This document shows positions 22,381 through 42,381 of a stretch of 64,000 nucleotides of DNA, piece by piece (positions within the stretch are counted from its first letter, which is position 1; every line of letters begins with the position of its first letter). This stretch comes from Tricholoma matsutake (Eukaryota > Basidiomycota > Agaricomycetes > Agaricales > Tricholomataceae). The stretch is from the NCBI GenBank assembly GCA_026075535.2, contig AP026547.1, forward strand, positions 5,146,001 through 5,210,000. Reading direction: 5' to 3'. The notes below the pieces were generated by a model that saw nothing but the letters and a program-made list of their open reading frames with translations, was not told where the DNA came from and ran no database searches. A program made the translations under genes and the position numbers.

Positions 22381-24110
22381 GTGTTTCCCACAGAAACGCA
22401 GCCTCAGAAACATGTTTTAAGACTTCTGATTTGTCTATCCTTTGGATATTTTAAAGATGTATTTAGACAAAATACTAAGGAAATATTTTACATGTATCCA
22501 AGCTGTATCTGCAAGAAACAGAAAAAGTGTATATTACAATGTTTCTTTCAGATCCATTGTGTTTTTTATGGTTCCTTTGTGTAAGTCAAAGAAACACTTT
22601 ATATCTAATTATAGCTGTATCTGCAGAAAACACTCAACATGTAATTTTATTATGTATGCCCAAATAAGCCAAATATATAAATATAAATACTGTCCTAATT
22701 ATTAGCCAATAATACTTTCCCATAAATATAGAATCACTATTAGATTTAGATTTAACAGATATGCTATATAATAAAATAAAATAACATAAGGACTCATACT
22801 TGCCAGAATTGGCCCTCACCCCAAGTATATAACATCACTATGTAGATGTCATTTTCAAACTCAGCTCAAAATCCTGGTTAGAATGGTATAAAACATCACT
22901 ATATTCCATTTATGATAAGTCACATGACTCTCCCAATGTCATTTTTGAACTCCGCTCAAACCAATCAGAATGGTATATATAACATCACTATATCCCATTT
23001 ATGGTAAGTCACATACTCTCCCAATGCCATTTTTGAACTCAGCTCAAGAAACTGATCAGAATGGTATATAACTTGAATTTAATCTTATGTTTACTTAAGA
23101 CTAATCACCACGAAGGCAACATCTGGCGATGACGGCCTGCACCTTTGAGTGCTGTACACCTTCGTGTACCTCTTTGAGCTTCTGCAGCTCCCCCTCTTGG
23201 TTTTCTTTCCCTGAGCTTGTCAGCTACTTTCTCTTGCTTACATGTTGTCTCCTATGACAACATCTGTCTCACAAGTGGTATATAGTCTTACCCATTGCAC
23301 AAGAGTTTTCTTGTTGCCTCCTTCAACTCTCAACTCTCATACCTTGGGTAGGTTCCTTTTTCTTAGTTTTAGTCATCTCCTTTATCTCACAACTCTCATG
23401 TTTAGTAGTCATCCTGGTTGCTTTAACCCACCCTTCCCACCCTTCTTTTATTCTGCTGCATGGATGGACTGGTGGTGCCTGGGCCAACAGGATGGATGAC
23501 ACTATATTCCTTTGTTCTATTGGCACAAACAAACATGGCGTACATCATACCAGTTCACATGTAGAACTTCTGCTGGTAGCTTTCCTCGTAACTTGCTTGT
23601 CTTTTTCCTAACGGGTTTTTTTAGCAAGACAAGGTTTTGATGCACCCAGTGAAGTTTATTATGTAGTCTTTTTCATTCCATTACTTAGAGCTGTACATGC
23701 ACAATTCATGATTGGTCATGCTACTGGTGGTCAGAGCGCACCTTTCTTCTGGCTAAATCGTCTCCCACGTAAGCCCTGAGCATGTGATTAGATCACTATT
23801 ATATCATGGTCACATGACTCTCCTGATGTCATTTTTGAACTCAGCTCAAAAAACTGATCAGAATGGTATATAACATCACTATATTCCATATATGGATGGT
23901 CCCATCACTACATACATGTCATTTTGAAACTCAGCTCAAAAAACTGATGTATAACATCACTATAAATTTTTGACTCCCACGGTTAGTAAAGTCAGTAATT
24001 TTTTGTAATGGTTGCTGAAAATTACTGACCATGGGGAAAACAGACATGGAAAATGGTCACACTGAATTTTTCATCGATTCTGGGTTTGAAGAACGAGTCT
24101 GTAATACCTC
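22381..24110. repeat. AT-rich segment with dispersed ~90 bp repeat units
   Basis: A unit of about 90 bp built on ATGGTATATAACATCACTAT, then CTCTCCCAATGTCATTTTTG and AACTCAGCTCAAAAAACTGA, occurs in copies starting near 22820 (partial), 22883, 22970, 23800 (partial) and 23863, with a further partial at 23947. The middle (23061-23800) is unrelated, less AT-rich sequence, so the array looks interrupted by an insertion. No coding potential that I can support. Probably a non-autonomous element or remnant satellite. Confidence 0.6.
23991..24029. repeat. Perfect 12-bp inverted repeat
   Basis: GTCAGTAATTTT at 23991-24002 and its exact reverse complement AAAATTACTGAC at 24018-24029, with a 15 nt loop. 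Possibly the terminus of a small foldback element at the edge of the AT-rich array. Confidence 0.7.
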
Positions 24111-24339
24111 CGTTAAGAACTCGTAAACCACTGTTTATTAACACTATATATACATACATAAGTGTTATCTACCAAAAAAAAGTGAAGGGAAAGGGCCAGG
24201 AATGAGTGGAATAGCATGCTCAACATCGGGGATGATGAGCATGACACTAGCCGAGGCTGTGGCATATGTTGATCAACCATGGGAGACGGTGATTGGGCAG
24301 TGATTGGCATGAGAACTGGTGGTAGGGTTTTGATGCAAT

Positions 24340-24392
24340 CAAGCCTAGGAATAGTGAGGCAGACATGGGATGCCTCACTATTCTTAGGCTTG
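24340..24392. repeat. 22-bp inverted repeat with 9-nt spacer
   Basis: The arm at 24340-24361 (starting CAAGCCTAGG) is matched by 24371-24392 as reverse complement with one mismatch in 22. Such a near-perfect hairpin may be a joined pair of terminal inverted repeats left after internal deletion of a DNA transposon. Confidence 0.7.
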
Positions 24393-24419
24393 TATTGTGG
24401 AAAGGTCAGGTGCTGGTAC

Positions 24420-24665
24420 CTGTGATACCTGTTACACCATGGGTAAGGGTATGGGTGTTCAGCAATCCCAAACCCATACCTGTGATGGGATTATCTGGTG
24501 TTACCCACTGTGTCATTCCTTATCCATATTTACTCATATATTTATAGTAACCATCCATTCATCCATGGATACCACCCATGTGATATCCATATCCATTGCC
24601 ATCCATCCATATATGGTATCCATGGATGGTCATCTGGATCATGGCCACCCATGGCAGTCCCTAGT
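24420..24665. repeat. Low-complexity CCAT/ATCC-rich sequence
   Basis: Degenerate iterations of CCAT, ATCC and GGAT with local palindromes (CCATGGAT, ATATGGTATCCATGG). Ends near GGCCACCCATGGCAGTCCC, which could be a transposon terminus. No gene. Confidence 0.55.
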
Positions 24666-24862
24666 ACAGAATATATGGGCACAATATGCGAGAGTGTAGA
24701 TATAACAACTTAGTAACTTAGTAGCACGATTCATGCAGTGGAATGAGGGCACAGCAGGTAAGACCTCTTATTGTGTCATTATCCTATCGACATATATATA
24801 TTTCTACTTATGTTTCAGTCTGGTTAAATCCCAGACTCTCCACTTGCCAAGTACAGCACAGC

Positions 24863-25060
24863 TTACTCCTCAACAGAGTACTTAGATTTGCATGCACTAA
24901 CAGTCTTCATAACACCCATTGTATGATGCTGAGCCATCTCTGCAGCCAGTGCATTCCACATGACAGGCTTGTAGGTGGCGCCATCTGCAGCAGCCTCCTT
25001 TTTAGTAAGAAGAAATGTTATCATCCTCTCCTCATCAGCTGGGGACCAAGAACACTGAGG
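24863..25060 (-). pseudogene. Myb/SANT-like DNA-binding domain fragment, DNA-transposon derived
   Basis: On the minus strand a fragment reads SWSPADEERMITFLLTKKEA, then TYKPVMWNALAAEM and MKTVSACKSKYS. The W..D.E..L..L and K..V.WN..A spacing matches the Myb/SANT-like domain found in the accessory ORF of Harbinger-type transposons and in many fungal repeat proteins. No transposase ORF follows and the frame ends after KYSVEE, so this is a truncated relic. Confidence is moderate for the domain and low for the transposon class. Confidence 0.6.
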
Positions 25061-25121
25061 AACACTAGCAGCTTGAACATCTTTGGCAGTCTGTAAGGGG
25101 AACACCTTACGAGCCCCTACA

Positions 25122-25198
25122 ATGGTTGGCGCACATTTGTGAATGTTTCTGCACACCCGCAAATGTTTGCGCAATGAGGCGCCTTTTGCGCCAACCAT
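25122..25198. repeat. Perfect 12-bp inverted repeat with 53-nt loop
   Basis: ATGGTTGGCGCA at 25122-25133 and TGCGCCAACCAT at 25187-25198. The loop and the following 120 bp contain many TTTGCGCAA- and TGCGCAA-like words. It sits at the N-terminal side of the Myb/SANT relic and may be a terminal or subterminal repeat of the same element. Confidence 0.65.
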
Positions 25199-25370
25199 CT
25201 ACAAACATTCTGATATGTCGATCCATCAGCCCCTATTGTACTCTCACCATTCTCACAGTCAATACCCCTGCGCAAACCATTGTCGCAGTTTGCACCTTTG
25301 TGCAAACCAGTTGCGCAATCGTTGCACCTGCGGAAACGATTGAGGATGTCTTTGCATGCCCATTACCAAT

Positions 25371-25430
25371 CATGGCCTGATGCAGACACCACTTACTGAG
25401 CATGGCCTGATGCGGACACTATCACTGATT
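25371..25430. repeat. Two direct copies of a 30-bp unit
   Basis: Copies 25371-25400 and 25401-25430 both begin CATGGCCTGATGC and share most positions. No function evident. Confidence 0.6.
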
Positions 25431-26256
25431 GATGGCCATCTCCCCAAATGGGAACACGACCCTGGATCTGAATTAGTGCTAGGATGGAAGGGGCTCCAAG
25501 TATTTTAGAACATCGCATGCCTTCCATATATATACTTCGGCCTTGCACCGGACCCCTTAGAGGTTTCTCTTTGGTTTTCCCTTGCAAGGTATGGGTCTTT
25601 TCCTTGTTCAATAGTTATTGAATCTAATCTTTGGTTTTCCCTTGCAAGTACTGAGTTCTTAGGACTCTGATCATAAGGTTGCGCTTACACAGGCAGAGGG
25701 TGGCTGTTTGACAAATGGTGGGTGTGCATGACAATTGAGGCAATTGATGGTTGACTCGGACCTTCACATGCCTTTGCAATTGGCAGAGTGCAGACAAAGA
25801 GATAATTGTGAGAATTCATCAGATTTCTGTTACTGGCCACCCTCTAACTCACATATCAATCTGAAAGTTTTTGTAAGCATGTAGAGCAACAACAACAACA
25901 ACAACCATCATAGCCCTCCACTCATGCGGGATTGGGCCGTAGTTGCTCACTGGTTGCTCATTCCAACTGTTACAAGGACAGGACTTTTGTTGCTGTTGAC
26001 AGGCTCAATTCCTGATACTGCTTTATGTGAGGTTTTGGACACACACACACACCATGACACAAACAACATCACATATCCCACTTGCGAGCCCTCCACTATT
26101 ACTGTGCATTCCACCACCACTGCTATGGCCTCTTAGCAGGTGCCATCTGTCCTCATTCTTTGATAGCAATGACAATGACACCCTATATCACCTGCCTCAA
26201 TGCCTTCCAAACTGAGCAGATTCAGCCACATGCACATGCTTTCAGCTACACAAGAA
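25431..26256. other. Non-coding island sequence left of the Copia element
   Basis: Contains two copies of CTTTGGTTTTCCCTTGCAAG (near 25570 and 25629), a (CAA)6 microsatellite near 25889 and an (AC)n run near 26040. Short ORFs have no recognisable family. This is the sequence into which the Copia element inserted; its continuation lies at 31934-31963 and from 42382 on. Confidence 0.45.
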
Positions 26257-26261
26257 GGACC

Positions 26262-26552
26262 TGTTGGAGCAGACTATATATGCTGCACAGGGGAAGAGAC
26301 AACACGTTCCTTACAACCTACCTGGGGTTTAGTTAGACTTACAGCTAGGGGTTAGCAGAGGTAAGAACACTATATTCTTACTACAGTACAGGTTCTCCTT
26401 ATATACATAATAGTAAGGATATCACATGACTCCAGAGGAATATGCATATGAAACATGTATCAATATTGTTAATTAATGTGGGAGAATATGCACATGCAAC
26501 AATATTGTGGGAGAATATGCACATGCTACAATATTGGTAATGAATTTCAACA
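26262..26552 (-). repeat. Copia 3' LTR (291 bp)
   Basis: Matches the other LTR with few substitutions but carries an additional 29 bp: the segment beginning GTGGGAGAATATGCACATGC is present twice here and once in the partner LTR. Confidence 0.93.
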
Positions 26553-26621
26553 CCCCCCCTCAAACTGTAAAGCGCTCTAAGCAGCTAAGTTTGAACCTCA
26601 AAAGTAATTCCGAGAGAGTCT

Positions 26622-29600
26622 CTAAATTTCCTGAATAGAATGGCACCAAGGTTCTTTGTGAACATTATCACTTCCAGGAATGAAAATGACTGTGACTTTG
26701 TCATTTTCTATGCATTTGCGGGTATAGTGGTAGTGAATGTCTACATGTTTGGTCCTTCTTTCCTGAACTGGATTTGATCCAATAAAGATGGATCCCTGAT
26801 TATCAGCGTAGATTGGTATGCGCTTCAGTATATATCCAAGTTCCTGGAATAAGGACTCTATCCACACTATCTGTCAACAAGTGTCGGAGAGAGCCATATA
26901 TTTGGCTTCTGTGGATGACAGTGCTACAGTTTTTTGTAAACGGGACTGCCAGCACACAATGCCACTTGCTAGAGTAGCAAAGTAACCTGTTGTAGATCGG
27001 CACTTGACAGTGTCAGCTGCCCAATCAGAGTCTGTGAAGGCCTGTAGCCCTTCAGATTTCTCTCCATCGTAGACTATGTTATATTTCTGGGTTCCCACCA
27101 GATAGCGCATGATGTACATTGCTTTGTCTAGATGTTCTTGGCTAGGATTAGCTGAGAATTGCGACATCCTGATTACCACATAAGCGATATCAGGTCAGGT
27201 TCCAAGCATCAGATACAATAAAGATCTGATCACAGACTGATATTTTGATCTAAGCACCGTGTTTGGCATCACTGTGTTTTCCAACAGTTTGTAACCAGTC
27301 GGGAGCGGAGTGGGGGCAGCTTTGGCATTTGTCATCTCAAACCTCTCGAGCACTTTGGCGAGATATTCAGTTTGATCGAGTTTGACTTTGCTTGCAGTCT
27401 GGGTGATGCGCATGCCTAAGAATTCTGTGACTTTTTCAGTACTATGGCACTCCCAATGCTTCAGACAAGCATTCTTCTTTTCATCCACAAGTTTCTTGTT
27501 CTTCCCCATGAACAAGCCATCATCAACATAGACCAGCACAACAACAATGCTGCCTGTCTTAGGATCCTTGTGTATGAAAATGCCGGCATTGGAGCTGGCG
27601 TGCACAAACCCAATGGTGCGCATAAATGCCTCTAGCTCTTTCCACCATGCTAGTGAGGCCTGTTTAAGGCCATACAATGCTTGGCATAAGTGCATTACTT
27701 TGCGCTCTTTTCCCTTGAGTCTGAAACCCTCAGGTTGATCAATATAGATCTCCTCTTCTAGTTTGCCATATAAAAATGCAGTTTTTACATCTAGACCGGT
27801 CATATACATGCCTTCTAGAGATGCAAGTGCAAACATGAGGTGTACGGTCTCGTAGCAGACTACTGGTGAGAAAATCTCATCAAAGTCAACACCTTTGACT
27901 TGTGAAAAGCCTTTCGCCACCAGTCTGGCTCATTTTCTTCCGTCCGATTTCACGGAGAAAACCCATCTATTTTTGATTGTTTTTTGATCATGTGGAAGAT
28001 CGACGATGTCATAGACTTGTCGCTTGCAAAGAGCCTCTAATTCTTCATGACAAGCCTGTTTCCACTCAAGTTGCTGCTGCCGTGGTAGGCGCGCAATATT
28101 GTGAAATTGGTTTGGAACTTGGCTTATTTCACTTGATGGTGTGACTGCTTTTGACAACAGCCAGCGAATAAGCTTATCTCCACCTTCCTTGGTTATCTTT
28201 TGAATATAACCTGCTTTGTCCAGTTCCCCCATTGGGTGATCATGTTCTTGATTATTGGAATTGGGCACACTCTCGTGGGGTGCCAAACTCGGTCCAGCAA
28301 CCGGTTCTTGCTGTTGAGATCATGGTCGTGTTTGGTTATGATCCAAATCTTGACCCACAGATCGCTTCCAATATCAATCACATGCAATGTCTCTCTCTAT
28401 GTCAGAGGGGAGTTGCTTCTCTCCATAGGTATTGCTGGGATGGTTTGGGATGTTCCTCTGCCTGCCTGATCGATGGGGCAATTGCTGCTATTCCTGTTGA
28501 TCTTCACGTCTTGGACAAAAGTCCTCAGTGGTTACTGGAGGCAGCGGAGGAGGAGCATCAGTTGCATCATCATGCACCTTTTGCTCGCTTGGTACATCAT
28601 CATCATCATCATTTTCTGATGATGGAGGAAGGGGCAGATTTTGTGGTGGTATAGAATCATCGCCATCCATTCCAGATGAGTGGTCGTCATCTTCTGGTTC
28701 TGGAGGTGGAAAATCACCAAGGTCTGTCTTGGCAGGAGTTTTAGCTCCGGGACAGCATGGGAACAATGTTTCATCAAATAGTGCTGTAGCACCAATGAAT
28801 ATTGCACCATTAAGTCGCATGAAATGGTATGCTTTAATGCCATCTTCTAATCCAAGGTACGTCATTAACTCCGATTGAGGAGCTAATGTGGTTGGACATT
28901 TTTTCTTGGGTAGATAGACGTAAGCACTGCAACCAAAGACCTTCAGATTGTTTAGATCTGGGCGGACCTTTGTCAGGTCCTCAAAAGGTGTTAGCCATTT
29001 CAGGCGCCTTATTGGGGTTTGGTTTTATAGGTGTGTTGCATGTTCAATGCAAAATTCCCACCATGATTGTGGTAGACAAGCGGTAAATTGCAGGGTTTGC
29101 GACTTTTCCATTATTGTCCTTATGGCGCGCTCTGCGCGCCCATTCTGTTGGTGAACGTGGGGTGCAGACATCTCTATTTTGATGCCAAAATCCTTGAGCA
29201 TATTTTGTAGCTCACGATCTTTGAACTCCCCCCCTGGATCAACACGCCAGTGCTTGATTGTAGTGCCATACTGGGTCAAAGCCATTGCCTGAAATTGTCT
29301 AATCGCTGCAGCAGCATCAGACTTCTTTCTAAGGCACTGGACCCAGATATGTGATGTCTTGTCATCCAGAAATACAATAAAGTATTTATGTTTGTGGTAC
29401 GATAGTACTGGGAGTTCCTTTAGATCAGAATGTATTAATTCAAAGGGTTTCTCTGTGCGTGAATTTGATTTGGGAAAAGATTTTGATGACATTTTCCCTT
29501 CAGCGCACCCTGGACATATAATTTTGTCTTTAGGAATAATTAAATTCCTCAGGAATTTGATGGTGCTATTAGGCATTTTCCCTAGCGCCTCTTTGGATGG

Positions 29601-31439
29601 GTGTCCAAGTCGCCTATGCCAAGTCAAGTAGTCAGCGACATATATGGTCGCAACATTGACCTTTTTGGTGCTCATTATATGAGTCCGAGCCCAATAAATT
29701 GTGTCACTTCTCCTAAGAGGGACACAATGCATAATTGGGTTTCCTTTCTCGATAAATGAAATGTGTGCAGAGGAACCATGCACATCACTTCCGTCTTGTA
29801 AGAAGACGCCCATTGACATTAATCGAGTATTAATGTCAGGTATGTAGTAGACGGGGTATAATCATGTTTCATGCGTCTCTGACTTCCCATGACATACTAC
29901 CTGATGTCTAATGAAGACTGCTCCTTTTCCTACTATATGAGTAGTACCTGTGGCTGTTTGAACCAAGGTAGAGTCCTTTCTTGGTAAAGGCTTGTAAGAA
30001 GCGAAATCTTTCATTTCACCAGTGAAGTGTTTTGATGCGCCTGAATCCATGATCCAGTCAGCACCTTTCTTACAATTTCCATTTGCACACATAACACATA
30101 TATTAAGATCTAAATAGTTCCATGATACATTTAATAGCGGTAAAATTTCACATGAAAAGTTCGCTGTAATCATTGGAATATTAATCTTAGTGCTTGTGGC
30201 AGGGAAAACGACTGACCTGTCATCATATCCTCCTGTTCCAAGCAGTTCATCGATGAGCATCTCATTGATGGCTTTCCATACTTCCTCATCAGAAACCGGA
30301 GGTTCCGATCCGAGGGAGACAATGTTGTCTTCTACCTCCATGATCCTTGGTTCTGGTTTGATCCTCCTCCTCTTACCTTCTCGCACTGTTAGGTGCTCTT
30401 CCAGCGGTCGCAGATTTTTTGCACTGCGCGGAAGATGCATTTGCTCGAGGGTGTCTCGAGCTTGCTGATATTCGGTGTAAACCGAATGAGAGGTAGAGGC
30501 CACACCTGTATATGCCTGTGCAGGCAGTCAGCGGCGAGGATCCCTTGTGGGAGTGTGGTCATGCTTTTCAATGCGCTGAATGAGCGGCATCAGTGGTATG
30601 ATGGTGCCATTACCATTTATGGTAGTAAAGGCACTGGAGGCAAGGTGGGTATGTTTCTCTTTAGGCTTTTCCTCCTTAGTCTTTTTGTCCCTGCATCGTC
30701 CACGTTTTCGGGACGAATCTCCATTGTTGTTTTGCCCTTCTTTGGGCTGCCATTTGGGGTTTCCCCCTTTGTGTTTGACAGCAGAAAGTTTGTTGGCCTG
30801 AAACTGGCCAGCGGGCTTTCCTACTGCCATGTGCCTTGAGGCTTCAGCAACAATGGAGTCCTTGACATGTTTAAACATCAAGGCACTAGTAGCAGTCATG
30901 TTAAGGACCATGGCAGACAAAGAATTGTACTCACGTGGCATCGCAGCAAGTAGGATCATTGCCTGAACTAGTTCGGGGATGGCAATGTTGGCAGCCATGA
31001 GGTGCTCGAACTTGTCAGCCATCTTAGCAATCTCTGGTGCGGGATTTGCAGCCGGAATTTTGATTGCTATTGCAGACCTAAAGTCTGCAAAGACTTGGGA
31101 GGGGCCATTGACACCATAATTGGTGTGAATGAGGTCCCACACCTCCTCAGCAGTGTCCTTGGTGTTGGCATGCTGCTGAATGGAGGGGGCCAGGCAGAGC
31201 ACTAGGCTACCAATAGCCTGGTCATTTTTGTTGCTCCAGGTCTGGAGCTTGGTAGTAGCATCCGCTACAAGAGTAGCGTTCATCGCTGTCAAAGGAGGTG
31301 CTGGAGGCGGTTTGATTTCCGCCCCGCTAGTTATCTGCCAGAGGCCCTGAGACCTGAGCCATGCCTTCATGGAGTCAGCCCATTGAATGTAATTTGAGCC
31401 ATCAAAAGTTTGTATGAGTTTTTCAAGGGTTGAAGACAT
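26622..31439 (-). pseudogene. Copia Gag-Pol polyprotein, one frame with seven premature stops
   Basis: Start at MSSTLEKLIQTFDGSNY (ATG at 31439; an in-frame Met at 31472 is possible), a UBN2/Copia-type Gag, then a basic tail with no clear zinc knuckle. The protease has DSGAS at about 30047. Integrase: WHRRLGHPS and CPGCAEGK form the zinc region, and HSDLK, VDPGGEF and GRAERA the catalytic DDE. RT: WVFSVKSDGRK, FLYGKLEEEIYIDQPEGF and VYVDD. RNase H: FTDSDWA, ALSSTEAKY and YADNQGS. In-frame stops fall at 30528 (TGA), 29862 (TGA), 29025 (TAA), 28488 (TAG), 27930 (TGA), 27195 (TGA) and 26874 (TGA). At 27930, 27195 and 26874 the family has Arg, so CGA to TGA is the simplest origin. The normal end is TAG at 26622. 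Confidence 0.93.
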
Positions 31440-31654
31440 GATTTTGTGGTGGCAGCTGTTATAACCGCTCAATCAGTCTTTTATCCAAGAAAACATGTTT
31501 CACAATCTCAGGAAAAAACACTCCTTCGGAGTGGTTAACCCTAGTCAACCTAGGTTTTAAGTGCAGCTCACAGGGAGTGCAAGGTTATAATTTGGAGATG
31601 ATGAAGTCAACGTCGTTCGCAGCCAATTAAGGTGTGTTCACGACGTGCCCAGCA

Positions 31655-31928: not shown

Positions 31929-31963
31929 GGACCTCTGTACCATCCACACTCTCTGTCCCACTC

Positions 31964-32161
31964 TGTGGTGACCTGGGGCTTGACCCCGCATTTGTATATA
32001 TTATATTTCTTTGCTATTGACCTGGCTGGCCCCTATAAAGGGACCAGCCTTCTATTTTACATAAGCGATCCTTTACTACCACCTCGAGTACACACGATAA
32101 TATACAATATTTGTGTTTAGCTCCTGCATGGTCTTAAGGGACCCCCCTCCAACTCACAACA
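31964..32161 (+). repeat. Gypsy 5' LTR (198 bp)
   Basis: Begins TGTGGTGACC, ends CTCACAACA. Contains a near-symmetric core with GGCTGG and CCAGCC arms around CCCCTATAAAGGG, which also supplies the TATA box (TATAAA). Confidence 0.95.
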
Positions 32162-32388
32162 GTTTTTTAAACACCCAAACTCGTATAGAGTTAAGCTCGA
32201 CATCGCCCCATCAGCGATCGTCATCAACACAACCCTGAACTTCTCCCGCAAAGGGAGAAAATTCTCAATGCGATCAGCGACAGAAGCATATCCATCGCTA
32301 GGACCTGAATCAAGTTTCTTTTGCACTCGACTCTTTGCTTTTCGCCCGCTGCTATGACCGAAAATTTTTCTTTTCTCTCCATTGCTGA

Positions 32389-35300
32389 AGACTGTACAAC
32401 AAGACCGACACCATAGCCTACACCAAGGCCAAAACCAAGAACAAACTGAAGCCTGCTCCTAAGCAGGCCGCGCAAGGTAACTCTCATCCGTCGCCATCAG
32501 GCTTGGATTCTCCTTGGCGTGCACCGAGAGATTTAACTGGACCCCATCCACTCGAGGCGCATACAAGCACCTCGAGAAACAATGTTTCCCCTACTAGGGA
32601 TACCCTCAAAGCGCATACAGCTGCTTTGAGAAACATCAATTCCTCTGCCCTTGGACTACACCATCAATGGGCCACCATTGAGGACGCTGACAACAGTGAT
32701 CCCAAATCCAGAAAATCTTCCTCATCGAAAAACAGTCAACGAGACTCTCAACCTAACCCAGGACCTCCTCCTGGTTTGCTGAACCTTTCTCCTCTGGATG
32801 AATTGACCCCAGAGCCCAACAATAACCAGGTTACCCCCAGTAGTGGTATCGATCTTCCCTGCAACAACCAGGTGTACGATACACCTGGATTATTTCCTGC
32901 TGTGTGGCTGGATTTAACACCATCAGCGCCCGCAACACCGATGAACACTAAGGATCGGCTGCGCCGACAAGAAGAGAAAAAGCCCCTCAAGAAACCTCGA
33001 GAGGATGAATCGGACAAAGAGTTTGGAGCTAAGCACTTCGCTCAGATCGCGACGGATATGTTTACCCATTGCATGGATGCAAGAGATTTTGAACCTATTA
33101 AGTTGGAAAACCAACTTAAAGATCTGGCGTTGAGTTACACCAGACACTTTTCCGGTAGGAGTATATTTAACCCTACCATCCCTCGTCCTGCCACAGCGGA
33201 ACAAGATCCCAATCCTATCCTACCTCGTTCCACCAACCCTGTGGAACGAGAAGATCCTTCTGCACATAGACATGGTTCCCCACGTCTACAAAACCCCAAG
33301 TTATCTCGTGAAGTACCTTCTAAGAAGAAGGTACACTACATCAACAACAACAGGATCGTCCTTCAAAGGATACGCGATGGCGATATCCAGGACGGACATC
33401 CCACCTCAATCCCCGACCAGGGGATCTGCTTCGACAAAGATGGTCAACCTTGGGATAAGGATGACACTTCATCTCGCCATCAGAAGTGGGACATCCCACC
33501 CTCTTGAAATTCCAGACAGCCTGCACAGAGTCACGCAGGCCATGGAGGACCACCAGATGGAGATGGATCCGGGGGTGATGATAATGAAAGTGATAGCGAC
33601 TCGACATATAGCATGTCAAGCGACAACAGTACCAATTATTCTTCCCAGATAGAGGAAGAGGCGTCCCACAGAAACTTGTCGAATCATCGATGAGAAACGT
33701 GGACTCACAATTCTTCCAGACGTACACCGTCTGGACATTCTGGTACCCAACAAGAGCCAAATAGCCCTTACTGGTCTACATCTTCCCATCCCGATTCTTA
33801 TTGAGAAAAAGGCTCTCGCCGTCCCTCAAAATATTTGAGGGACATCCATACCAAGATACATAGACAGATCAACAACAAGGTCTCTGTCTTGACAGAAATT
33901 CCTACCACTGGAGGCAAGAACCGTCCCCATGTTCCCAATCCATCAAAGTACAGCGGATTACCTGACACTGAAAGCTTTGAAAGATGGCTAAATGCCCTTC
34001 TTCGGTGGTTGAAGGTGAACAAGGTATGTGGCCCTGAGCTGGACTCAGACCGTATTGAATATACGGCGATGTTCCTTGAGAACACTGCCCTCACTTGGTT
34101 TGAGGAAAGCGTTGATGGTGCATACCGCCCACGCTCAATCTGGACTTTCAAAGAAGTCATCACTGGCCTATACAACTGGTTTGTGCATGAAAATGCGACG
34201 CATGACGCGACCGATAAATTCTGGCACGTCGAATATAACACCGAAGAAGGCGTTATGGGCTATTACCACAAACTGGAGCAATATGCTACCAGGATGATAC
34301 AGGCGCCTGATCCTTTTACGTTCAAAATGCAATTAGTGACCGGATTGCCCACAAGCATCATCTCCTTTGTACTGGACAAAGGATGCTCCGCTGAGACAAG
34401 CTCAGTGCAAGATATTCTACACTTTGCCTGCCAGGCAGAGGAAATAGGTAAAATGAGAAAATGCTTCAATGAAAAGAAGCATATAATGGATTCCACCAAG
34501 TCGAAGAGCGCATCCTCTTCGACTAAAAGTTCTAAAACAAAAGACCCTTCACCTGAATGGTCTCATGAATGATCCCGAGATCATTCCCAAAAACACGATA
34601 AGAACTATCATGACAACTCTAAATATCCGGGTTTGAAGTATCCTACCAAGGAAGTTCGAAGTCATGGCGACAGCGATCGCCATAACAAAGATCATCATGA
34701 TACTCGACATTGCTCATCTGGAGGAAAACCATCCAGACATTCCGGATCCAAATCAGACAAAAGGTCTGATGACAAGAAGACCCCAACTTGTTACAGCTGT
34801 GGAGGTCCACACTACTCCACAGATAAGGGCTGCCCTAAATACGGACAGCCAAAACCATCGGCTAAGATGTACGCCGCTCGGGAAGGATCAGGCTCTACGA
34901 CTGATCTCCAGACATCCAGTGCTCAACCGAGCGGTGATCACCACTCAAGTCCTACCAGGGACTTGGATTCACACTCTGCGACAAGTGAATGACTCGCCAC
35001 AGCATACAGCGACTCAGAGGACAACACTCCCTCTGAGTATGGGTCTGCGTTGTCAGACATGAACCCTGACGGTTCTCAGTACAGTTCAGAAGGCGAACTG
35101 TACAACTTGGAATCTGACACTGGAGATAACCCCAGTGAATATTCTGGATCAGAGCACTTTGGTGCAATCCAAGAAATCCTTTCGGAGTATGACTCTGATA
35201 GTTGCCCATCCACCCAATTGGTATCCGACTCAGAGGAAGACTCTGAGGATGAGACGGAGAAGAAATCTCCATCATTTTCTGAAAGATTAGGCATCATGAT

Positions 35301-38300
35301 GGACAACCTTTTCAAAAACAAACCACACTTTAGAGGCGCGACCACTTTGAGGAAATCCTCAAAGAAAATAACCTGTCCTCCTCACTCAGAGAAGGACAAC
35401 CATTGCTTCGTGGCGAAAATGAGGCTTCATGAACTTGAAGCTTTCATCCTCCTTGATTCAGGCTGCATGTCTGATTCAATCTCACCTGAGTTCGCCATGT
35501 CAGCGAACCTTAAAGCCCACGAATTGGAAGAACCGGTGCCATTGCAATTGGGCACCATTCGAAGCCGTTCGAAGATCAACTTCGGACTATTCACCAATTT
35601 TGAAATTAGTGAAATCAAAAACACCCACTACTTTGATGTTGTTAACATCGATAGGTATGACGCCATTCTGGGCACCGTGTTCATGAGAAAACACGGTATA
35701 GTATTAGACTTCAAACATGACAAAGTACACATCAAGGGCAAACACCTCGATACCATCATTGAGGGCCCTAACACTTTCAAGCAAGCCCAGCGGCATGCTA
35801 TGCATCCTCAACCTCCCAAGGATGAGTGACTTGACCGTGGCCACCCGGCTGCATGAAAGAAAAAAGATCCGGACAAGCCTGGTCCAAGTTCTACGAAAGT
35901 GCAACCTCCATCTGTGAGACGTAGGAATGTTGAAATGGAAGAAGTAGACGATGTTGACAAACATCGTCCATCGAAGCTGAAACTTTCGGACCCCATCCTT
36001 TTGGGACCTGAAGAGGGACCCCTGAGTGACAAAGAGGACAATCTGGAAGAGATCGTCCAGGAATTCACTCGGGATAGATTTCCCGATGGACCCAATTTCG
36101 AACCTCCCGGGTTTGATCCCTCTATCCCTGCGGTACTTCCACCAGATCAGGTCGATGACCTGAATGATGTACTCTTTGCAATTTGTGAAGATCTGGCTGA
36201 TAAAGCTAAAAGTAAAGGACCTCTTTCAAAGAAGGACCTTCCATGCCTCCATGAGGAGTGGAAACAATCTTGTCAGGACATCCTTAATGGAGTACCTGAC
36301 AAACTATCTCCTTTAAGGGAGATAAACCACCATATCCCACTGGTGGATGAGAAGAAGAAGTATAACTACTATCTTCCCAAATGTCCGGACTCAATGAGGA
36401 AACCCCTCGCCAAGAAAATATCCAAGTACTGCAAGGCAGGCTGGTGGCACCCTGCCCACGCAGAGCAAGCAGCTCTGATGCTAGTAGTTCCCAAGAAAAC
36501 AGAGAAACTTCGCACTGTGATCAACGCAGTGAAACGTAATGCTAACACAGTGAAAGATGTTACACCATTTCCTGATCAAGACTTGATTCGTCTTGATGTC
36601 ACTCGAGCGAAGTACCACTCGAAGATTGACCTCTCGGATGCCTATGAGCAGGTCCGAGTTGCGCCAGAAGACGTCTGGAAAACTGCATTCTCAACTGTTC
36701 AAGGCGTTTACAAGAGTCTTGTTATGCAACAAGGTGACTGCAATGCACCATCAACCTTTCAAAGGTTGATGAACTCCATATTCCAAGACTACATCGGAAT
36801 ATTTGTCCACGCCTACCTGGATGACATTTTCATGTTCAGTGACATGATCGAAGAACACCAGAAACATCTGGAGCTCGTGTTTGACAAGCTATGCGAGCAT
36901 TCTCTGTACCTTTGTGCAGAGAAGTGTGAACTCTATGCTGAAAAGGTAGAGTGTCTCGGTCACATGATTGACAAACACGGCCTACATGCTGATAGCGATA
37001 AAATGGCGCGTATACGAGAGTGGAAAACTCCTCATAATTATCACAAAGTCCAGTGTTTTCTGGGACTCGTGCAGTATCTGGCACATTTCCTGCCAGATAT
37101 AAGTGCCTTCACTAGTCCGCTTTCTGTGATGACTAAAAATGGCCAAGCCTTTTTGTGGCGACCATTGCACGATCATTGCTTCCAGATGATTAAACACATC
37201 TGTTGCACGACACCAGTGCTGAAGCCGATCGACCCAGATTCACCTGAACCAATATGGGTGATCTGTGATGCCTCAGTCTTTGGGACTGGGGCAATGTATG
37301 GTCAGGGACCCGAGTGGCAAACTTGCTGCCCTGCTGGGTTCCTGTCCAAGAAATTCTCTGACGCTCAAAGGAACTACCGTACCTTTGAGCATGAGACGAT
37401 TGCCATACTTGAGGCACTCCTCAAGTGGGAAGACAAACTGATCGGTAGGCGCATTCATGTCATCACCGATCACCAGGCACTTGAGTTTTTCCAAACTCAA
37501 TGCCGACTGTCTGCTAGGCAAACACGATGGATGGAATATCTATCACATTTCGACTTTGACATTCGTTATGTCAAAGGCAAATTGAACAAAGTAGCGGACA
37601 CTCTGTCCTGCTACTACCAATTCAACTCTTGGGATGATGCTCCTTTAGTCCAACACTACGTCTTCGCAGACGTACGTCTCGACCCCAACCACGAGGATCT
37701 CCCGTGGGATCGACATCTCAAAATCAAAAATCGAGTAATTGAAACTCATTCCACTGCTTCCCAGCAGAAACGAGTTGGTGAACAACTAAAAGCTCTTCGA
37801 GAATGAGTTGAAGAGCGTGAGGCAGCCGCAGCCATAATGACTGCAAATGCAGAAGAAGTAACCACAACTCCTTCAGACACCAACCAATCGCAGGATGATC
37901 CTTCGATTTATGCCTCTCAGGCTAAAGGGCCTGACCTGAACATTCACATGTCAGAGTTAGACCCCCTGAACGACGATATCCGCAAGGGATATGTCAACGA
38001 CAAACATTTCAAGAAGGTTCTTGAAAAACCTAAGGACCACCCGGACTTCCAGATTCGGGATGATTTCATTTGGAGAAAGAACAGAGGAGGCGAAGATGTT
38101 CTTTGCATCCCCACCTCTACTTCCAAGGGTACGACCTTACATGGTTGTATCATCAAACAAGCCCACACACTGGTAGGGCATTTCGGCCCTCTGAAAACAT
38201 CAGAATACATCCGACGTTGGTATTGGTGGCCTCGACTTCAATATGAAGTCAAAAAGTACTGTGATTCATGCAAACCTTGCGTCCGCTCGAAGGGGGAATA

Positions 38301-39465
38301 CCGCTCCCCTCGAGGCAAGCTGCACTCATTACCAACACCCATGAGACCATGGGAGTCAATTGGAATGGATTTTATCGGACCCTTCCCAGAGTCCGATGGA
38401 TTTGACTACCTTTGGGTAATTATATGTCGTCTGTCTTCCATGGTTCACCTTATCCCGGTGAACCCGACGACAACAGCATCGCAACTATCTCCCATCTTCG
38501 TGAAGGAGATTGTCCATTTGCATGGACTACCTGGCTTGATCGTTTGTGATCGAGACTCTAAATTCACATCCAAATGGTGGTGTGAAATCCACCATATCTT
38601 GGACGTAAAGATACTCATGTCCACATCATTCCATCCTCAGACAGACGGAATAATGGAACGCGCAAACCGTTTGATCGCTCAAATCCTCCAAGTGTTCATT
38701 GCGTCCAATCAGAAAGATTGGGTAAAGTTCCTCTCTCTCATAGAGTTTGCAATAAACTCTACCATTAACAGAGCAACGGGTATGGCCCCATTTGAAATCA
38801 ACTACAGATTCTTGCCTTGCATGATGCAAGAACTTCCTTCTACAGAACGCATTCCTCCTGGATTGCGTACTTTTGCAATGAATGCACTGCGAAACATGGC
38901 GATGGCCCATGATAGCATCATCGCTGAAAGAGTCTTTCAGTGGCACTATGCTAACAAGCATCAGTGCAAGGAGCTCGATATCAAACAAGGAGACCTTGTT
39001 TACCTTTCCACCAAAAATCTTGTGTTGCCAAAGGGACGTGCAAGTAAGCTGCTACCTAAATTTGTAGGACCCTACAAGGTCCTACAAGCTTTACCCAAAA
39101 AATCCAGCTATGTGCTGGATCTTCCCAGCGAGTTGAAACGCCGGTGTATACACCAGTGTTTCCATGTGAGCCTACTAAGGCCTCACCACCCTAACGATGA
39201 CTTGTTGTTTCCCAACAGGCGTTATCCTGATGCATATGACTTCGGTGCCCCAGATGACACTGAATGGTATGTCAAAGAAATCACGGCTCACAAGTGGTGT
39301 GGCTGTACCGTCCAGTTTGAAGTCAAGTGGAGTCTGGGAGACACCACTTGGGAACCTTTAGCGAACTGCAATGATCTTGCAGCTCTAGATGCTTATCTGG
39401 CAAGAATTGCCAAAACGCGCAGGAACTCCTGCGCGTCAACGAACTTAGCTACTTCAAAATTTTGA
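32389..39465 (+). pseudogene. Gypsy Gag-Pol frame with chromodomain, interrupted only by TGA codons
   Basis: One frame is open from 32389 to the TGA at 39463 except for TGA at 33505, 33691, 33802, 34570, 34990, 35827, 35854 and 37804; there is no TAA, TAG or frameshift in it. It is preceded by TGA at 32386; the initiator is unclear (an ATG at 32354 lies in another frame). Gag core at 33835-34570 (YSGLPDTESFERWLNALLRW), CCHC knuckle CYSCGGPHYSTDKGC near 34792, protease LLDSGCMSDS near 35451, RT with QRLMN and YLDDIFMFSD near 36815, RNase H with CDASVFGTGAMYG and ITDHQALEFF, integrase zinc region and FHPQTDGIMERANR, then a chromodomain (TVQFEVKWSLGDTTWEPLAN) near 39310-39370, which targets integration to chromatin in this group. 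Confidence 0.92.
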
Positions 39466-39572
39466 AGTCACGTTGGGCGGGTAACTGTCCAGCAGATTTC
39501 AAACTCCACAACTGTACATCACAACGCGCGGAGTTTCAAATTTTTTCTTCCTTCATCACTTGGTACATTACC

Positions 39573-40244
39573 ATGGCGAGTATTCCACCAGACAAGGATG
39601 ACCCCATGGGGGACGATTTTGACGACAAAGAACCTAGCCAGATGCGCGAGACGGGCCCCAGTGGCCGGTCTCGAAGGGGGAAGGAGAAGCAGAGAGAGCT
39701 CGAGCCCACCAGCTCGAGCAGCAGCAACACTCAACACCATTGCTCGCCAAGCCCTGGTGAGATCGAAGAAGCCATCAGCACTAGCAGACGTTCTGCTAGA
39801 GAAGAACAAAACCGGCAAGTTGGTGTGGGCACCAGCTCTTCCGCTACTGGAAATTGGAGGATTGACGGTGAAGGCATCGTCCTTCACCGAGGCACTTGCA
39901 ACATCTGCAAGAGCTATGCTTTACACGTGTACACCCACGTGTACGACCAAGATGATGAATATTTTGACGCAAAGAAGCATCGAGATTCTGAAATTAACTC
40001 TGGCGCTCTCACCAGAGCCAATCGTGTTTATGATGAATATGAAAAAGATATTGCTGCCCTCCAGGATACCATCCGGAACCTGGAGGATGAGAATGAGCAC
40101 CTGCACGAGCAGCTCGATGGATGTTCATCCAAGCAAGCTCATACTCATGAACCCTCTCCTTACCCCGACAGACCTCAGGGTAATTCGTATGCCGGTGCAG
40201 CCTCTCGGCCTGCTCCACCTCCTGCTCCCCGACGAGGACGTTAA
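39573..40244 (+). CDS. Gypsy accessory ORF2: acidic/Ser-rich protein with Cys-His motif and coiled coil
   Basis: Unknown function. ATG at 39573 in a good context (ACCATGG), 108 nt after the pol stop; ends with TAA at 40242-40244, giving 223 residues. Residues 1-85 are acidic and Ser-rich with RRGKEKQRE; a middle block has CNICKSYALHVYTHVYD, which could bind metal; residues of about 150-185 form a heptad-like coiled coil (EYEKDIAALQDTIRNLEDEN); the C-terminus is Pro-rich. The frame is intact although its neighbours are broken. Its position after integrase is where errantiviruses carry env, but there is no signal peptide or TM segment, so it is not envelope-like. Confidence 0.7.
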   Translation: MASIPPDKDDPMGDDFDDKEPSQMRETGPSGRSRRGKEKQRELEPTSSSSSNTQHHCSPSPGEIEEAISTSRRSAREEQNRQVGVGTSSSATGNWRIDGEGIVLHRGTCNICKSYALHVYTHVYDQDDEYFDAKKHRDSEINSGALTRANRVYDEYEKDIAALQDTIRNLEDENEHLHEQLDGCSSKQAHTHEPSPYPDRPQGNSYAGAASRPAPPPAPRRGR

Positions 40245-40245
40245 C

Positions 40246-42032
40246 ATGAACAAGGTCTACCCACTTCTTCCTAACCTTCCACCCCCGAGATATACATTCT
40301 CGGGCCCTGATGTTCCCAGGACGGCGAACTGGAAACCAGCTCCCAAGCTGCATGGCCAAGTTCCTATGTCCATTCCTCAGAACACTGAGGAATTTAATAG
40401 CTGGTCCCAGATGGCCCACACCTCCGGGAACTTCGCAATGTTGGAACGAATGTGTGAGTACATGCAGTTTGTCAATGACACTCCTTCAGGGGCTCAAATG
40501 CCCCTGATGACTTATGCCCTTGCCCACTGGAGATTACCCAGTTGGCTCCCTGTTCAAATGCAGTTGGCTCAAGGATTACGCTGACTCAATGACCCTACTT
40601 GCCTGGAGCAACCCTCGCTCCTGGATTCTGCTGAAACATGGGTGCAATTCATGCACCGACACCTGTACCAGTGGCGATTCCACCCTCGCTCCTGGATTCT
40701 GCTGAAACGTGGGTGCAATTCATGCACCGACACCTGTACCAGTGGCGATTCCACCCTGGTACCCTACTGGACGAACAGAGGGTCTCCCTCCCATACGTCA
40801 GGGGACAACTCCTGCTTCATCAACAGATTCCTTCAGGGCTCTCCCCTGAAGCCAAACTACTTCTCTACCTTCGTATTGCGGAGGTACTAGCCACACCGGG
40901 ATTGTACTGACAGATTTGAGAGTGCGAATGCCTCTCACTGTCCCCCGTGCACCGTCGGCAGCCCATGCCGATCAGCAGCAATACAATTTCCCTCGAGGAC
41001 GTTGTACGACACCTTGCTTCTATAGGAGTCTCGGACAAGGAAGTCCGAGAAGGTTCTCACTATGCCATCGGCTGGCTTACAGCGACGGCTACTGCCAGCT
41101 CTTCCCATTCAGAAGAGTCTTCTACCACTGCAGACATCATAAGACGTCTGTGGCAACATCAAAATACCCATTCAGAGGATGCTCCTCTGATGTCTGAACC
41201 CCAGTGGTGGATCGCTGGGCCTAACAACGTAGCCCTTCGAGAGCCACGAAGAAAAAGAAAAAGAGAATCCACCGCTCCCACCAGGGGCGGAGCTCCCTCT
41301 CATTCAGGGCGACCTCGCCCTGAATCAATGACTTCCACTGCCCCATCCTCCGGATTCTCCACTGGACTATCTGCATCTATGCACGCGAGCACCTCTCGCG
41401 TGGACATCCAACCCCCTGCCAGTGCCGGACCTTCGTATCTGTCCAGCTGGCATCCAACTCCTCCAGAGGAATATTCCCTGGAGAACAATCCAAACTCAGG
41501 ATGGTCCAGATCCCCCCTCATTGTCAAGGCAACTCAAGGCCAGAAGAAGGCCTTGAAGAGAGCTAGGAGAGTCGCCACCGGCATCCCTCCTAACGGGCAC
41601 AAGAAGCCCATTAGCAAATTCACTCCAGTTGCGTCTACCAAGCCGCAAAAAGTTAGAGATGCTGAGGATGACGGTGATACCACCGACTCCGTCTCTTCAT
41701 CCGACGATGAAACATTCACCGTCGATAAGTCCACCATCGATAAGGACCGTTTCCCTCTTGATGAAGGGCAAACGACGGACACCTCGGCTCTGGGGAACTC
41801 CCCAGAGACACCCATATCCCAATTGTCTTCGTTGGCATCAAACAATGAAATGACCCTGCTTTCTTCCATGCCCGATTATGAGTGTGAAGACCCCATACCC
41901 ACAACTCCAGAGGAAGTTAGACGTATGATAGTCGACATCAACCTCCCTGATTCCTTGTCGAACCTCGACAAGTCCAACATATCATCGTTGAGCCTCGACA
42001 ATACCCACATCCCCGATGACCCTACTAAATAA
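40246..42032 (+). pseudogene. Gypsy accessory ORF3, broken by TGA codons and a 71-bp tandem duplication
   Basis: ATG at 40246 directly after the ORF2 stop (TAACATG). Begins MNKVYPLLPNLPPPRYTF and includes EFNSWSQMAHTSGNFAMLER. Stops at 40582, 40908 and 40917 are all TGA; a 71-bp duplication at 40612-40753 shifts the frame by two, after which the second frame runs to TAA at 42030-42032. Without the duplication the coding length would be about 570 codons. The middle part (AETWVQFMHRHLYQWRF, EDVVRHLASIGVSDKEVREG) looks helical and folded; the C-terminal 250 residues are Ser/Thr/Asp-rich and disordered with a basic patch RRKRKRES. No known family recognised. Confidence 0.7.
40612..40753 (+). repeat. 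71-bp direct tandem duplication
   Basis: Copies 40612-40682 and 40683-40753 are identical except one site where copy 1 has CA and copy 2 has CG (AAACATGGG against AAACGTGGG), a CpG-type transition after duplication. Confidence 0.9.
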
Positions 42033-42178
42033 GGTCGTCGCATTTTTTAATAAACAAACAAATTGATTCACCTCATCATACCCCGACGATACCCACATGC
42101 CAGACGATACTCTCTTCGAGATCGTCTACTTACTCAAAACATTATGCTTCTCCCCTGGACGAAGCCTAAGGGGGAGGG

Positions 42179-42376
42179 TGTGGTGACCTAGGGCTTGACC
42201 CTGTGTTTGTATATATTATATTTCTTTGCTATTGACCTGGCTGGCCCCTATAAAGGGACCAGCCTTCTATTTTACATAAGCGATCCTTTACTACCACCTC
42301 GAGTACACACAATAATATATGTTATTCATGTTTAGCTCCTGCATGATCTTAAGGGACCCCCCTCCGACTCACAACA
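42179..42376 (+). repeat. Gypsy 3' LTR (198 bp)
   Basis: Same length as the 5' LTR with 12 substitutions and no indels. Preceded by the polypurine tract and followed by the CACTC duplication. Confidence 0.95.
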
Positions 42377-42381
42377 CACTC

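Follow-up and report, generated by a model that had tools for sequence, protein, structure and literature searches.

A Ty3/gypsy-type retrotransposon of Tricholoma matsutake whose almost entirely coding interior is a chain of local perfect hairpins formed by codon choice

The window (the whole stretch of DNA analysed, 64,000 nucleotides of Tricholoma matsutake contig AP026547.1) lies on ch10 and contains at positions 31964–42376 an LTR retrotransposon of 10.4 kb with LTRs of 198 bp. Its parts, in window positions and with counts of perfect inverted repeats, are the following.

31959–31963, no strand: target-site duplication CACTC, left copy, same letters as 42377–42381
31964–32161, + strand: 5' LTR, 198 bp, TG...CA; zero perfect repeats with arm at least 6, loop up to 10
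32162–32502, + strand: leader; two repeats with arm at least 6, none with arm at least 8
32503–39465, + strand: gag-pol reading frame, in-frame stops retained; 32 repeats with arm at least 8
39573–40244, + strand: extra 3' ORF, no Pfam match; 5 repeats with arm at least 8
40245–40946, + strand: stretch separating the two extra ORFs; 3 repeats with arm at least 8
40947–42032, + strand: extra 3' ORF, no Pfam match; 7 repeats with arm at least 8
42179–42376, + strand: 3' LTR, 198 bp, differing from the 5' LTR at 12 positions
42377–42381, no strand: target-site duplication CACTC, right copy

The LTR features are those of Ty3/gypsy elements (Metaviridae): TG...CA ends, CACTC on both sides and a polypurine tract, AAGGGGGAGGG, before the 3' LTR. 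Pfam families Retrotrans_gag, RVP_2, RVT_1, RT_RNaseH, Integrase_H2C2 and SH3_Tf2-1 were found in the gag-pol frame, the matches following the Ty3/gypsy domain order of gag, protease, RT, RNase H and integrase; the integrase core rve was matched at E 1.3e-5, under the Pfam curated cut-off. No Chromo family, the chromovirus mark, was detected by Pfam at the integrase end at E ≤ 0.001; the integrase C-terminus is chromodomain-like by eye only. Another frame, 39598–40584, overlaps in part the stretch 40245–40946. The element is a Ty3/gypsy-type retrotransposon, and its interior, almost entirely coding, is a chain of local perfect hairpins made through codon choice.

A scan of 31964–42376 for perfect inverted repeats with arms of at least 8 bp and loops of up to 17 nt yielded 48 (4.61 per kb). 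The initial annotation of this DNA had described dense repeats, one every 50–100 bp, and had counted 38 where about three were expected by chance; the density was as said, while the count was low. In 30 dinucleotide shuffles of the element the mean was 2.6 (sd 1.8, maximum 7), so that the excess is about 18 times chance; with arms of at least 9 bp, 22 repeats compare with 0.5 in the shuffles. With arms of at least 6 bp and loops of up to 10 nt, 113 distinct centres are present across 32503–42032, spaced 84 bp on average, in agreement with the earlier spacing. The three examples named at that time, at 36749, 37554 and 39451, proved exact. Loops are mostly of 3–10 nt, and perfect arms are of 8–12 bp across copies, the longest in the window copy having 11 bp. 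The hairpins are listed below (no strand; arm in bp, loop in nt), with their state in relatives, among them L033, L034, L036, L037 and L038.

32605–32630: arm 8, loop 10
32868–32888: arm 9, loop 3
33098–33119: arm 9, loop 4
33224–33250: arm 10, loop 7
33313–33334: arm 9, loop 4
33715–33735: arm 8, loop 5
33821–33843: arm 10, loop 3
34363–34383: arm 8, loop 5
34499–34524: arm 10, loop 6
34567–34586: arm 8, loop 4
34797–34822: arm 8, loop 10
35012–35038: arm 9, loop 9
35079–35103: arm 9, loop 7
35345–35364: arm 9, loop 2
35674–35697: arm 8, loop 8
35947–35968: arm 9, loop 4
36270–36302: arm 8, loop 17
36575–36597: arm 8, loop 7
36749–36771: arm 11, loop 1, RT motif STFQRLMN; identical in L033
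37075–37099: arm 9, loop 7; retained in L033
37363–37390: arm 9, loop 10; perfect in 5/6 relatives, one arm change in L036
37407–37426: arm 8, loop 4; retained in L036
37481–37500: arm 8, loop 4
37554–37576: arm 9, loop 5, FDIRYVKG; paired in 6/6 relatives, double change C:G to T:A in L033 and L037
38007–38026: arm 9, loop 2
38076–38104: arm 8, loop 13
38442–38464: arm 8, loop 7
38741–38761: arm 8, loop 5; double change A:T to G:C in L034, L036 and L037, with another stem pair open there
38924–38940: arm 8, loop 1
38983–39001: arm 8, loop 3
39062–39087: arm 10, loop 6
39415–39436: arm 10, loop 2
39451–39468: 18-bp palindrome with the pol stop codon; ORF 37837–39465 ends inside
39698–39719: arm 8, loop 6
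39781–39799: arm 8, loop 3
39866–39889: arm 9, loop 6
39922–39943: arm 8, loop 6
40058–40086: arm 8, loop 13
40372–40393: arm 9, loop 4
40486–40507: arm 8, loop 6
40831–40851: arm 8, loop 5
41029–41050: arm 8, loop 6
41172–41190: arm 8, loop 3
41302–41325: arm 11, loop 2
41382–41402: arm 8, loop 5
41534–41556: arm 8, loop 7
41788–41807: arm 9, loop 2
41954–41972: arm 8, loop 3

The 32 repeats of gag-pol (32503–39465) compare with 2.5 in synonymous-codon shuffles (maximum 7, n = 200) and 2.4 in shuffles holding both synonymous codons and dinucleotides (maximum 8, n = 200). Since protein-preserving shuffles remove the repeats, codon choice produces the hairpins, within conserved coding motifs, as the initial annotation had supposed. 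The least constraining codon phase (positions 1:1 and 2:3) is over-represented, namely, in 26 of 54 stems with arms of at least 7 bp (29% in shuffles) and in 11 of 17 with arms of at least 9 bp. Stems with a single mismatch also exceed shuffles (for example, A.C, 30 vs 4.8; A.A, 10 vs 2.4; G.U, 10 vs 4.0). In the non-coding ends (LTR, leader and 3' end, about 687 bp unique), two stems with arms of at least 6 bp were found vs 8.1 expected (P 0.012), and none with arms of at least 8 bp.

Chance, composition or codon usage is refuted by the dinucleotide, synonymous and combined shuffles, nothing having been found in its favour, and hardly comes into consideration.

Host sequence of the window lacks such density, as previously noted: the flanks in the window contain 22 repeats in 31,963 bp (0.69 per kb) and 8 in 21,624 bp (0.37 per kb). 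Host frames and a helitron showed no clear excess. The neighbouring Copia element (26500–31500), in which earlier spot checks had not shown the pattern, is weakly enriched, with 9 matches vs 1.2 in shuffles, four of them on one CATCATCA run, which leaves six distinct places; the coding strands of two of its three ORFs fold strongly (22.6% and 28.5% beyond codon-shuffled controls; 6.3% in the third). Elsewhere in the genome, a folding excess of about 20% over shuffled controls is present in Copia family 1 and in a LINE-like element. Both have few long perfect stems (1 vs 0.57 and 2 vs 0.8, respectively) and lean to the + strand, by 0.85 kcal per window (sd 0.76) in the former and by 1.6 (sd 0.89) in the latter. 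No such excess was found for a helitron or for a second family of Copia.

The pattern is present in 24 further copies (3.2–5.6 repeats per kb) and in five relatives tested (3–11 repeats per 2.5 kb vs about 0.8 in controls). Over the full 2.5 kb, 7, 3 and 4 long stems were found in L036, L037 and L038, respectively, vs 0.7–0.8, but in the longest open piece of each they were at chance (1 vs 0.57, 1 vs 0.37 and 0 vs 0.33). Stems turn over in pol: of 11 reference stems, four are fully paired in L033 and two in each of five other relatives. Hairpin arms co-vary between families: in stems with arms of at least 8 bp from six families, double Watson–Crick changes number 52 vs 30.0 (sd 4.1; maximum 42 in 500 shuffles), the count pooling related sequences. 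G.U and A.C are lowered alike between families (97 vs 117 and 154 vs 187 expected), and arm divergence is balanced (D 0.59 vs 0.85, 0.70–1.02). Synonymous sites in stems are kept more often: at amino-acid-conserved, non-CpG codons, third positions are identical in 694 of 1025 cases in stems vs 7272 of 14081 outside, a count pooling 30 ordered pairs of related sequences from six families, and an amino-acid-matched test was positive in all 9 tested of the 30 ordered pairs (z 0.2 to 4.4).

Genome-scale ordered RNA structure (GORS) is ordered structure extending over the genomes of RNA viruses. In the element, mean folding energy in 150-nt windows is −41.7 on the + strand vs −32.7 in controls (sd of means 0.47) and −47.7 on the − strand vs −38.6 (sd 0.48). 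Predicted RNA folding thus goes far beyond codon-shuffled controls, the + strand excess over synonymous shuffles being 28.1% for gag and 32.9% for pol, with the RNA phage MS2 as a yardstick at 28.9% and 30.5% (range about 29–31%). This likeness of size, an excess of about 30% across the coding genome, together with the + lean of the LINE-like element, of Copia family 1 and of L033 (1.1 kcal, sd 0.81), would suit selection confined to the sense strand, as genomic RNA or mRNA, like that in RNA viruses and MS2. However, a sense-strand folding preference was looked for in gag and pol of the window element and none was seen: the (+)−(−) energy difference is 4.19 vs 3.98 in pol (sd 0.56) and 7.94 vs 7.39 in gag (sd 0.69), whereas MS2 shifts 3.1 and 1.4 kcal toward the + strand (sd 1.25 and 1.03). 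L034, L036 and L038 lean to the − strand by 1.0, 2.8 and 1.2 kcal. G.U pairs in minimum-free-energy structures give no sense-strand preference either, being lowered on both gypsy strands (on the + strand, 22 vs 26 per kb in the element and 21 vs 32 in L033) and in MS2 mainly on the minus strand. On the + strand, perfect Watson–Crick helices with 8 bp or more number 4.1 per kb vs 1.1–2.0 in MS2, where perfect stems with short loops are scarce; the stems here are short-looped and perfect rather than irregular. Ordinary selection on sense RNA is improbable, given the equal folding of the two strands and the absence of any preference for G.U.

Neither of the two causes proposed in the initial annotation, template switching and selection for a folded genomic RNA, is established. 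For the folded RNA, covariation, synonymous conservation and the MS2-like energy speak in favour, while the G.U signature of MS2 is absent. Template switching would act as arm homogenisation: the nascent strand would snap back in reverse transcription and use one arm as template for the other, perfecting quasi-palindromes, while protein constraint confines the build-up to synonymous sites, and function is unnecessary. Perfect Watson–Crick arms, equal folding of the strands with no G.U preference on either, the favoured codon phase (as in long mitochondrial repeats of Nematomorpha; PMC6649704), loops that suit snap-back, and the host frames and helitron without clear excess all fit this process. 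Homogenisation of arms by template switching has been described for yeast coding genes (PMC8604942). Private variants lengthen some repeat by at least 2 slightly above controls (78/421 vs 13.8% and 74/421 vs 14.4%), but those creating repeats are in no clear excess over matched random changes (arms of at least 8 bp, 9/421, 2.1%, vs 1.75%; arms of at least 7 bp, 16/421, 3.8%, vs 3.2%), and shared variants do not lengthen stems beyond controls (15/120 vs 46/348); these tests have low power for the active lineage because most variants arose after insertion. Balanced rather than one-sided arm divergence, the stem-poor LTR, leader and 3' end, and the second Copia family without the pattern also stand against arm homogenisation, which is a possible though doubtful explanation.

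Stems with arms of at least 8 bp are disrupted by 22 of 421 private variants (5.2%), fewer than the 8.6% for matched changes (p 0.013). In subfamily A, stems and the remaining sequence do not differ significantly in variation (stems relative to the rest, 0.85x for single variants, p 0.29, and 0.64x for shared ones, p 0.24). CpG decay inside the stems of inserted copies ignores pairing, compensated TG/CA and CA/TG numbering 63 and 61 and uncompensated CA/CA and TG/TG 68 and 62. Since this decay breaks stems freely after insertion, and inserted copies do not repair the damage, maintenance of the stems is confined to the active, replicating lineage. Correction of palindromes at the DNA level by host replication or repair agrees with the strand symmetry, but this decay and the low density in host sequence of the window make it very unlikely.

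Selection for hairpins on both strands is preferred to arm-copying by template switching, as a tentative reading that falls a little short of being probable. Such selection would favour strong local self-folding of the nucleic acid of the element, and the selected state would involve the sense RNA plus minus-strand cDNA or antisense RNA; both strands would have to be concerned because G.U is unfavoured on either and both fold equally well. Among the observations on its side are the protein-preserving shuffles, folding, covariation, balanced arms, synonymous conservation, less stem breakage, loops of 3–10 nt and non-coding ends free of stems with arms of at least 8 bp, as well as the folding excess of about 20% in the LINE-like element and one Copia family. 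Against it are the lack of wobble preference, stem turnover, chance-level long stems in the longest open pieces of three relatives, non-significant variation in subfamily A and the few long stems in the LINE-like element and Copia family 1. As to function, fast local folding might prevent base-pairing of either strand with small RNAs or with the complementary strand, allowing escape from RNA silencing, and might make the template more compact when it is packaged and reverse-transcribed. A hairpin code across the element genome under both-strand selection, to which codon choice and an occasional amino acid yield, and which most simply shields from complementary RNA, is conceivable, if far from assured. 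It would be an ordered genome structure of both strands, distinct from viral sense-RNA structure, and none such was found described for transposable elements.

If the hairpins are selected, a second code superimposed on that for protein would give a transposable element a predicted folding as tight as that of MS2, and would open a route to asking what silencing or packaging requires of retroelement RNA. If produced by arm copying, they would record the frequency with which a reverse transcriptase uses its own product as template and would be a nuclear counterpart to the unexplained palindromes of Nematomorpha. Either way, a single genome assembly provides many copies at graded degrees of divergence on which both readings can be tested.

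The suggestion that no such family had been described agrees, for retrotransposons, with the literature searched, in which no description of hairpin-packed coding was found, but mitochondrial genes of Nematomorpha provide a precedent, the nearest one together with the ordered RNA structure of viruses. According to the report on Nematomorpha, these genes contain perfect coding inverted repeats, counted there from an arm length of 15 bp upward, with a mean arm of 43 bp and a maximum of 142 bp; imperfect repeats are not in excess, and template switching is among the proposed causes (PMC6649704). Common to both systems are perfect repeats made by codon choice in conserved coding sequence, phase 2:3 favoured in the longer ones, and turnover of repeat positions, there between species; they differ in that the arms there are long and lie in mtDNA, whereas those here are of 8–12 bp, enclose short loops and belong to a retrotransposon of the nucleus, and in the enrichment of single-mismatch stems here (PMC6649704). 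In Saccharomyces cerevisiae, template-switch homogenisation of arms is reported as multinucleotide changes in 39 genes and would likewise yield perfect arms inside genes, but the element has 4.6 repeats per kb throughout and no clear excess of stem-creating private variants (PMC8604942). Pre-miRNA-like regions occur in most transposable element superfamilies and in genes of maize, and local hairpins in transposable element transcripts are a shared feature, while dense perfect short stems formed by codon choice are unmentioned in the abstract of that work (PMC10760457). The element marY1 of T. matsutake belongs to the gypsy group and shares the host, but is reported to be about 6 kb in length vs 10.4 kb here (PMC10211490).

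The element at 31964–42376, a retrotransposon of Ty3/gypsy type carrying in-frame stops, lies on contig 10 of the assembly (161,040,721 bases, 13 contigs). The target-site duplication CACTC and a polypurine tract are present. Pfam matches follow the order gag, aspartyl protease, reverse transcriptase, RNase H, integrase zinc domain, integrase core and SH3-like C-terminus, the integrase core match scoring below the Pfam cut-off.

Features of the retrotransposon
31964–32161 and 42179–42376: LTRs, 198 bp each, 12 differences between the pair
32503–39465: gag-pol, with 9 in-frame stops, counting the terminal one
39573–40244 and 40947–42032: two additional 3' reading frames without Pfam match
40611–40757: tandem duplication of about 75 bp; the unit is single in 20 of 24 other copies (those aligned across the site; the remaining four do not reach it)
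42245–42258: in the LTR, an 11-bp quasi-palindrome with one A·C mismatch and a TATA-like motif within the loop

The dense inverted repeats described in the initial annotation proved real and strong. The element contains 48 perfect inverted repeats (arms of at least 8 bp, loops of up to 17 nt), or 4.61 per kb, versus 2.6 in its dinucleotide shuffles (sd 1.8, maximum 7, n = 30) and 0.69 and 0.37 per kb in its flanks. Gag-pol carries 32, and codon shuffling cuts the number to 2.5 when the protein is preserved and to 2.4 when dinucleotides are also held; chance or composition as the cause is ruled out by the dinucleotide and protein-preserving shuffles. The stem excess is carried by short loops.

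Gag-pol stems with arms of at least 8 bp, by loop length (observed versus expected)
0–2 nt: 5 versus 0.4
3–6 nt: 15 versus 0.7
7–10 nt: 10 versus 0.5
11–15 nt: 1 versus 0.5
16–25 nt: 3 versus 0.9
26–40 nt: 1 versus 1.0
41–80 nt: 5 versus 2.8

The codon phase least constraining for the protein is preferred, being used by 26 of 54 stems with arms of at least 7 bp and 11 of 17 with arms of at least 9 bp, versus 29% in shuffles; no phase is favoured in the two extra 3' frames (5 and 7 stems, arms of at least 7 bp). Regular stem spacing was left unused, being marginal for arms of at least 8 bp (CV 0.61 versus a null range of 0.66–1.14 in the interior, 0.59 versus 0.61–1.14 in gag-pol) and within the null range for shorter arms.

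Hairpin density is 3.2–5.6 per kb in 24 other copies, of which 20 belong to subfamily A and 4 to subfamily B; not all of them were covered in full. Six 2.5-kb pol pieces of gypsy relatives from other families (67–78% nucleotide identity) contain 11, 6, 9, 7, 3 and 4 repeats; the same stretch of the window copy contains 11. With loops of 0–15 nt, five relatives (L033, L034, L036, L037 and L038) have 11, 6, 7, 3 and 4 repeats versus 0.7–0.8 in synonymous shuffles. In the longest open frames, shorter than 2.5 kb, the counts are 8 versus 0.73 in L033 and 4 versus 0.63 in L034, and the result is weaker in L036 (1 versus 0.57), L037 (1 versus 0.37) and L038 (0 versus 0.33). Repeat counts drop roughly alongside CpG content, and thus partly alongside age. 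The clade is a sample rather than a survey: 104 of 8949 candidate places were scored in the search, and the DNA of 31 places, window copy included, was examined. Protein P0001, of metagenome source, showed 93% identity. Searching viral_contigs, whether with a single protein or with an alignment, gave nothing useful. In genome_contigs, one fungal-type gypsy piece (L039) was found in a Rhizonema sp. cyanobacterial MAG record (JAQYWP010000673.1), most likely as lichen-fungus contamination.

The proposed comparison of relatives for compensatory changes revealed an excess of double Watson–Crick changes among six families: 52 versus 30.0 (sd 4.1) for arms of at least 8 bp, 98 versus 71.4 for at least 7 bp and 178 versus 125.2 for at least 6 bp. 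A cruder count gave 59 double Watson–Crick changes versus 42 broken pairs, the shifted controls giving 19–26 versus 46–68. Arm divergence is balanced between the two arms, synonymous identity is higher inside stems, and private variants break stems less often than matched controls. These observations speak for maintained pairing. The counts draw on related sequences and meet some conserved stems repeatedly, so they are less significant than the numbers alone imply.

Subfamily-A copies differ chiefly through CpG decay. Their 728 CpG columns contain 7947 CG, 3175 CA and 3083 TG states; about 44% have decayed to CA or TG in a near-equal split (L009–L028 and the window copy), and non-CpG sites off the column majority number 26–76 per copy over 8917 columns. 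This sequence pattern points to strong CpG-directed mutation of this family. Where CpG lies in both arms, compensation is no more frequent than its absence (63 and 61 compensated states versus 68 and 62 uncompensated); therefore, inserted copies shed stems freely, and upkeep takes place in the replicating lineage. Host-level DNA correction of palindromes was ruled out, as CpG decay is independent of pairing. Variation within stems is lower than outside in subfamily A, not significantly.

Template switching, in which the nascent strand snaps back during reverse transcription and copies one arm from the other, is possible, though less likely than not. Stem-lengthening private variants weakly favour it: their apparent excess (95 of 489 versus 195 of 1424, and 78 of 421 versus 13.8% once sites having CG in any copy were excluded) shrank to 74 of 421 versus 14.4% under a larger matched control. 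However, there is no clear excess of stem-creating private variants or of stem-lengthening shared variants, and the non-coding LTR, leader and 3' end have no stems with arms of at least 8 bp and only 2 with arms of at least 6 bp versus 8.1 expected across some 687 unique bp (P 0.012).

Folding was scored in 91 windows of 150 nt of gag-pol on both strands, and gag-pol surpassed its shuffles on each: mean energy is −41.7 (+) and −47.7 (−), whereas synonymous shuffles that keep the dinucleotides reach −32.7 and −38.6, for a mean z of −2.02 and −2.00.

Folding excess, % (+/− strand; gag, pol, MS2 and host frames over plain synonymous shuffles; the remaining elements by one frame of 1.7–2 kb apiece)
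Pol: 32.9/29.9
Gag: 28.1/24.1
RNA phage MS2: 28.9/22.7 and 30.5/28.3
L033: 28.1/23.3
L034: 15.2/18.2
L036: 13.4/20.5
L037: 15.7/13.9
L038: 10.1/13.5
Copia family 1: 19.6/15.8
Copia family 2: 0.1/−2.0
LINE-like element: 19.8/15.2
Helitron: 3.7/2.2
Lichen-fungus gypsy: 3.7/−1.2
Five host reading frames: between −25 and +6 (+)

MS2 resembles the element in + strand excess but has only 3 repeats (arms of at least 8 bp, loops of up to 17 nt) in 3569 bases. Ordinary sense-RNA structure is an improbable explanation of the hairpins: G·U is not preferred to A·C between the six families; G·U is reduced on both strands of gypsy, whereas MS2 loses it mainly on the − strand; and folding energy does not favour the sense strand in the window element, its relatives leaning either way (L033 to +; L034, L036 and L038 to −). 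A minus-strand preference, based on fixed single mismatches (A·C 18 versus G·U 5), was dropped because shifted controls carry the same skew (401:251, p 0.13). The tentatively preferred explanation, at a likelihood just short of even, is that selection favours local hairpins pairing on both strands.

Ordered RNA structure of viruses is a known phenomenon, for which the literature search found no retrotransposon case; no treatment of hairpin-dense retrotransposon coding sequence was found either, subscription papers being thinly covered. Coding palindromes in Nematomorpha mtDNA (PMC6649704) and homogenization of inverted-repeat arms in yeast genes (PMC8604942) are precedents as well.

As folding excess is present in some elements and absent from others, strong folding is a property of some retroelement lineages in the T. 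matsutake genome; among the elements seen, the gypsy clade carries it furthest, in the form of long perfect stems. The earlier spot checks, in which the adjacent Copia did not show the hairpins, need correcting: the window's Copia, 92% identical to Copia family 1 over 2 kb, is mildly enriched in repeats, and two of its three frames are clearly folded. This neighbour (26500–31500) is unusually folded (z −1.4/−1.7), and the related family is represented at other genomic sites by many intact 1631-aa frames. The LINE-like frame L043 (1289 aa, high-copy family, found via Exo_endo_phos_2) exceeds its codon-shuffled controls in folding by about 20%, with no clear excess of long perfect stems. The host frame 55492–56268, which looks like a helicase by eye, falls 25% short of such controls. 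The stretch 22501–25500, devoid of 150-aa ORFs and perhaps an old transposon, surpasses shuffles in folding, with z of roughly −0.8 to −1.7, and contains repeats with 12- and 13-bp arms.
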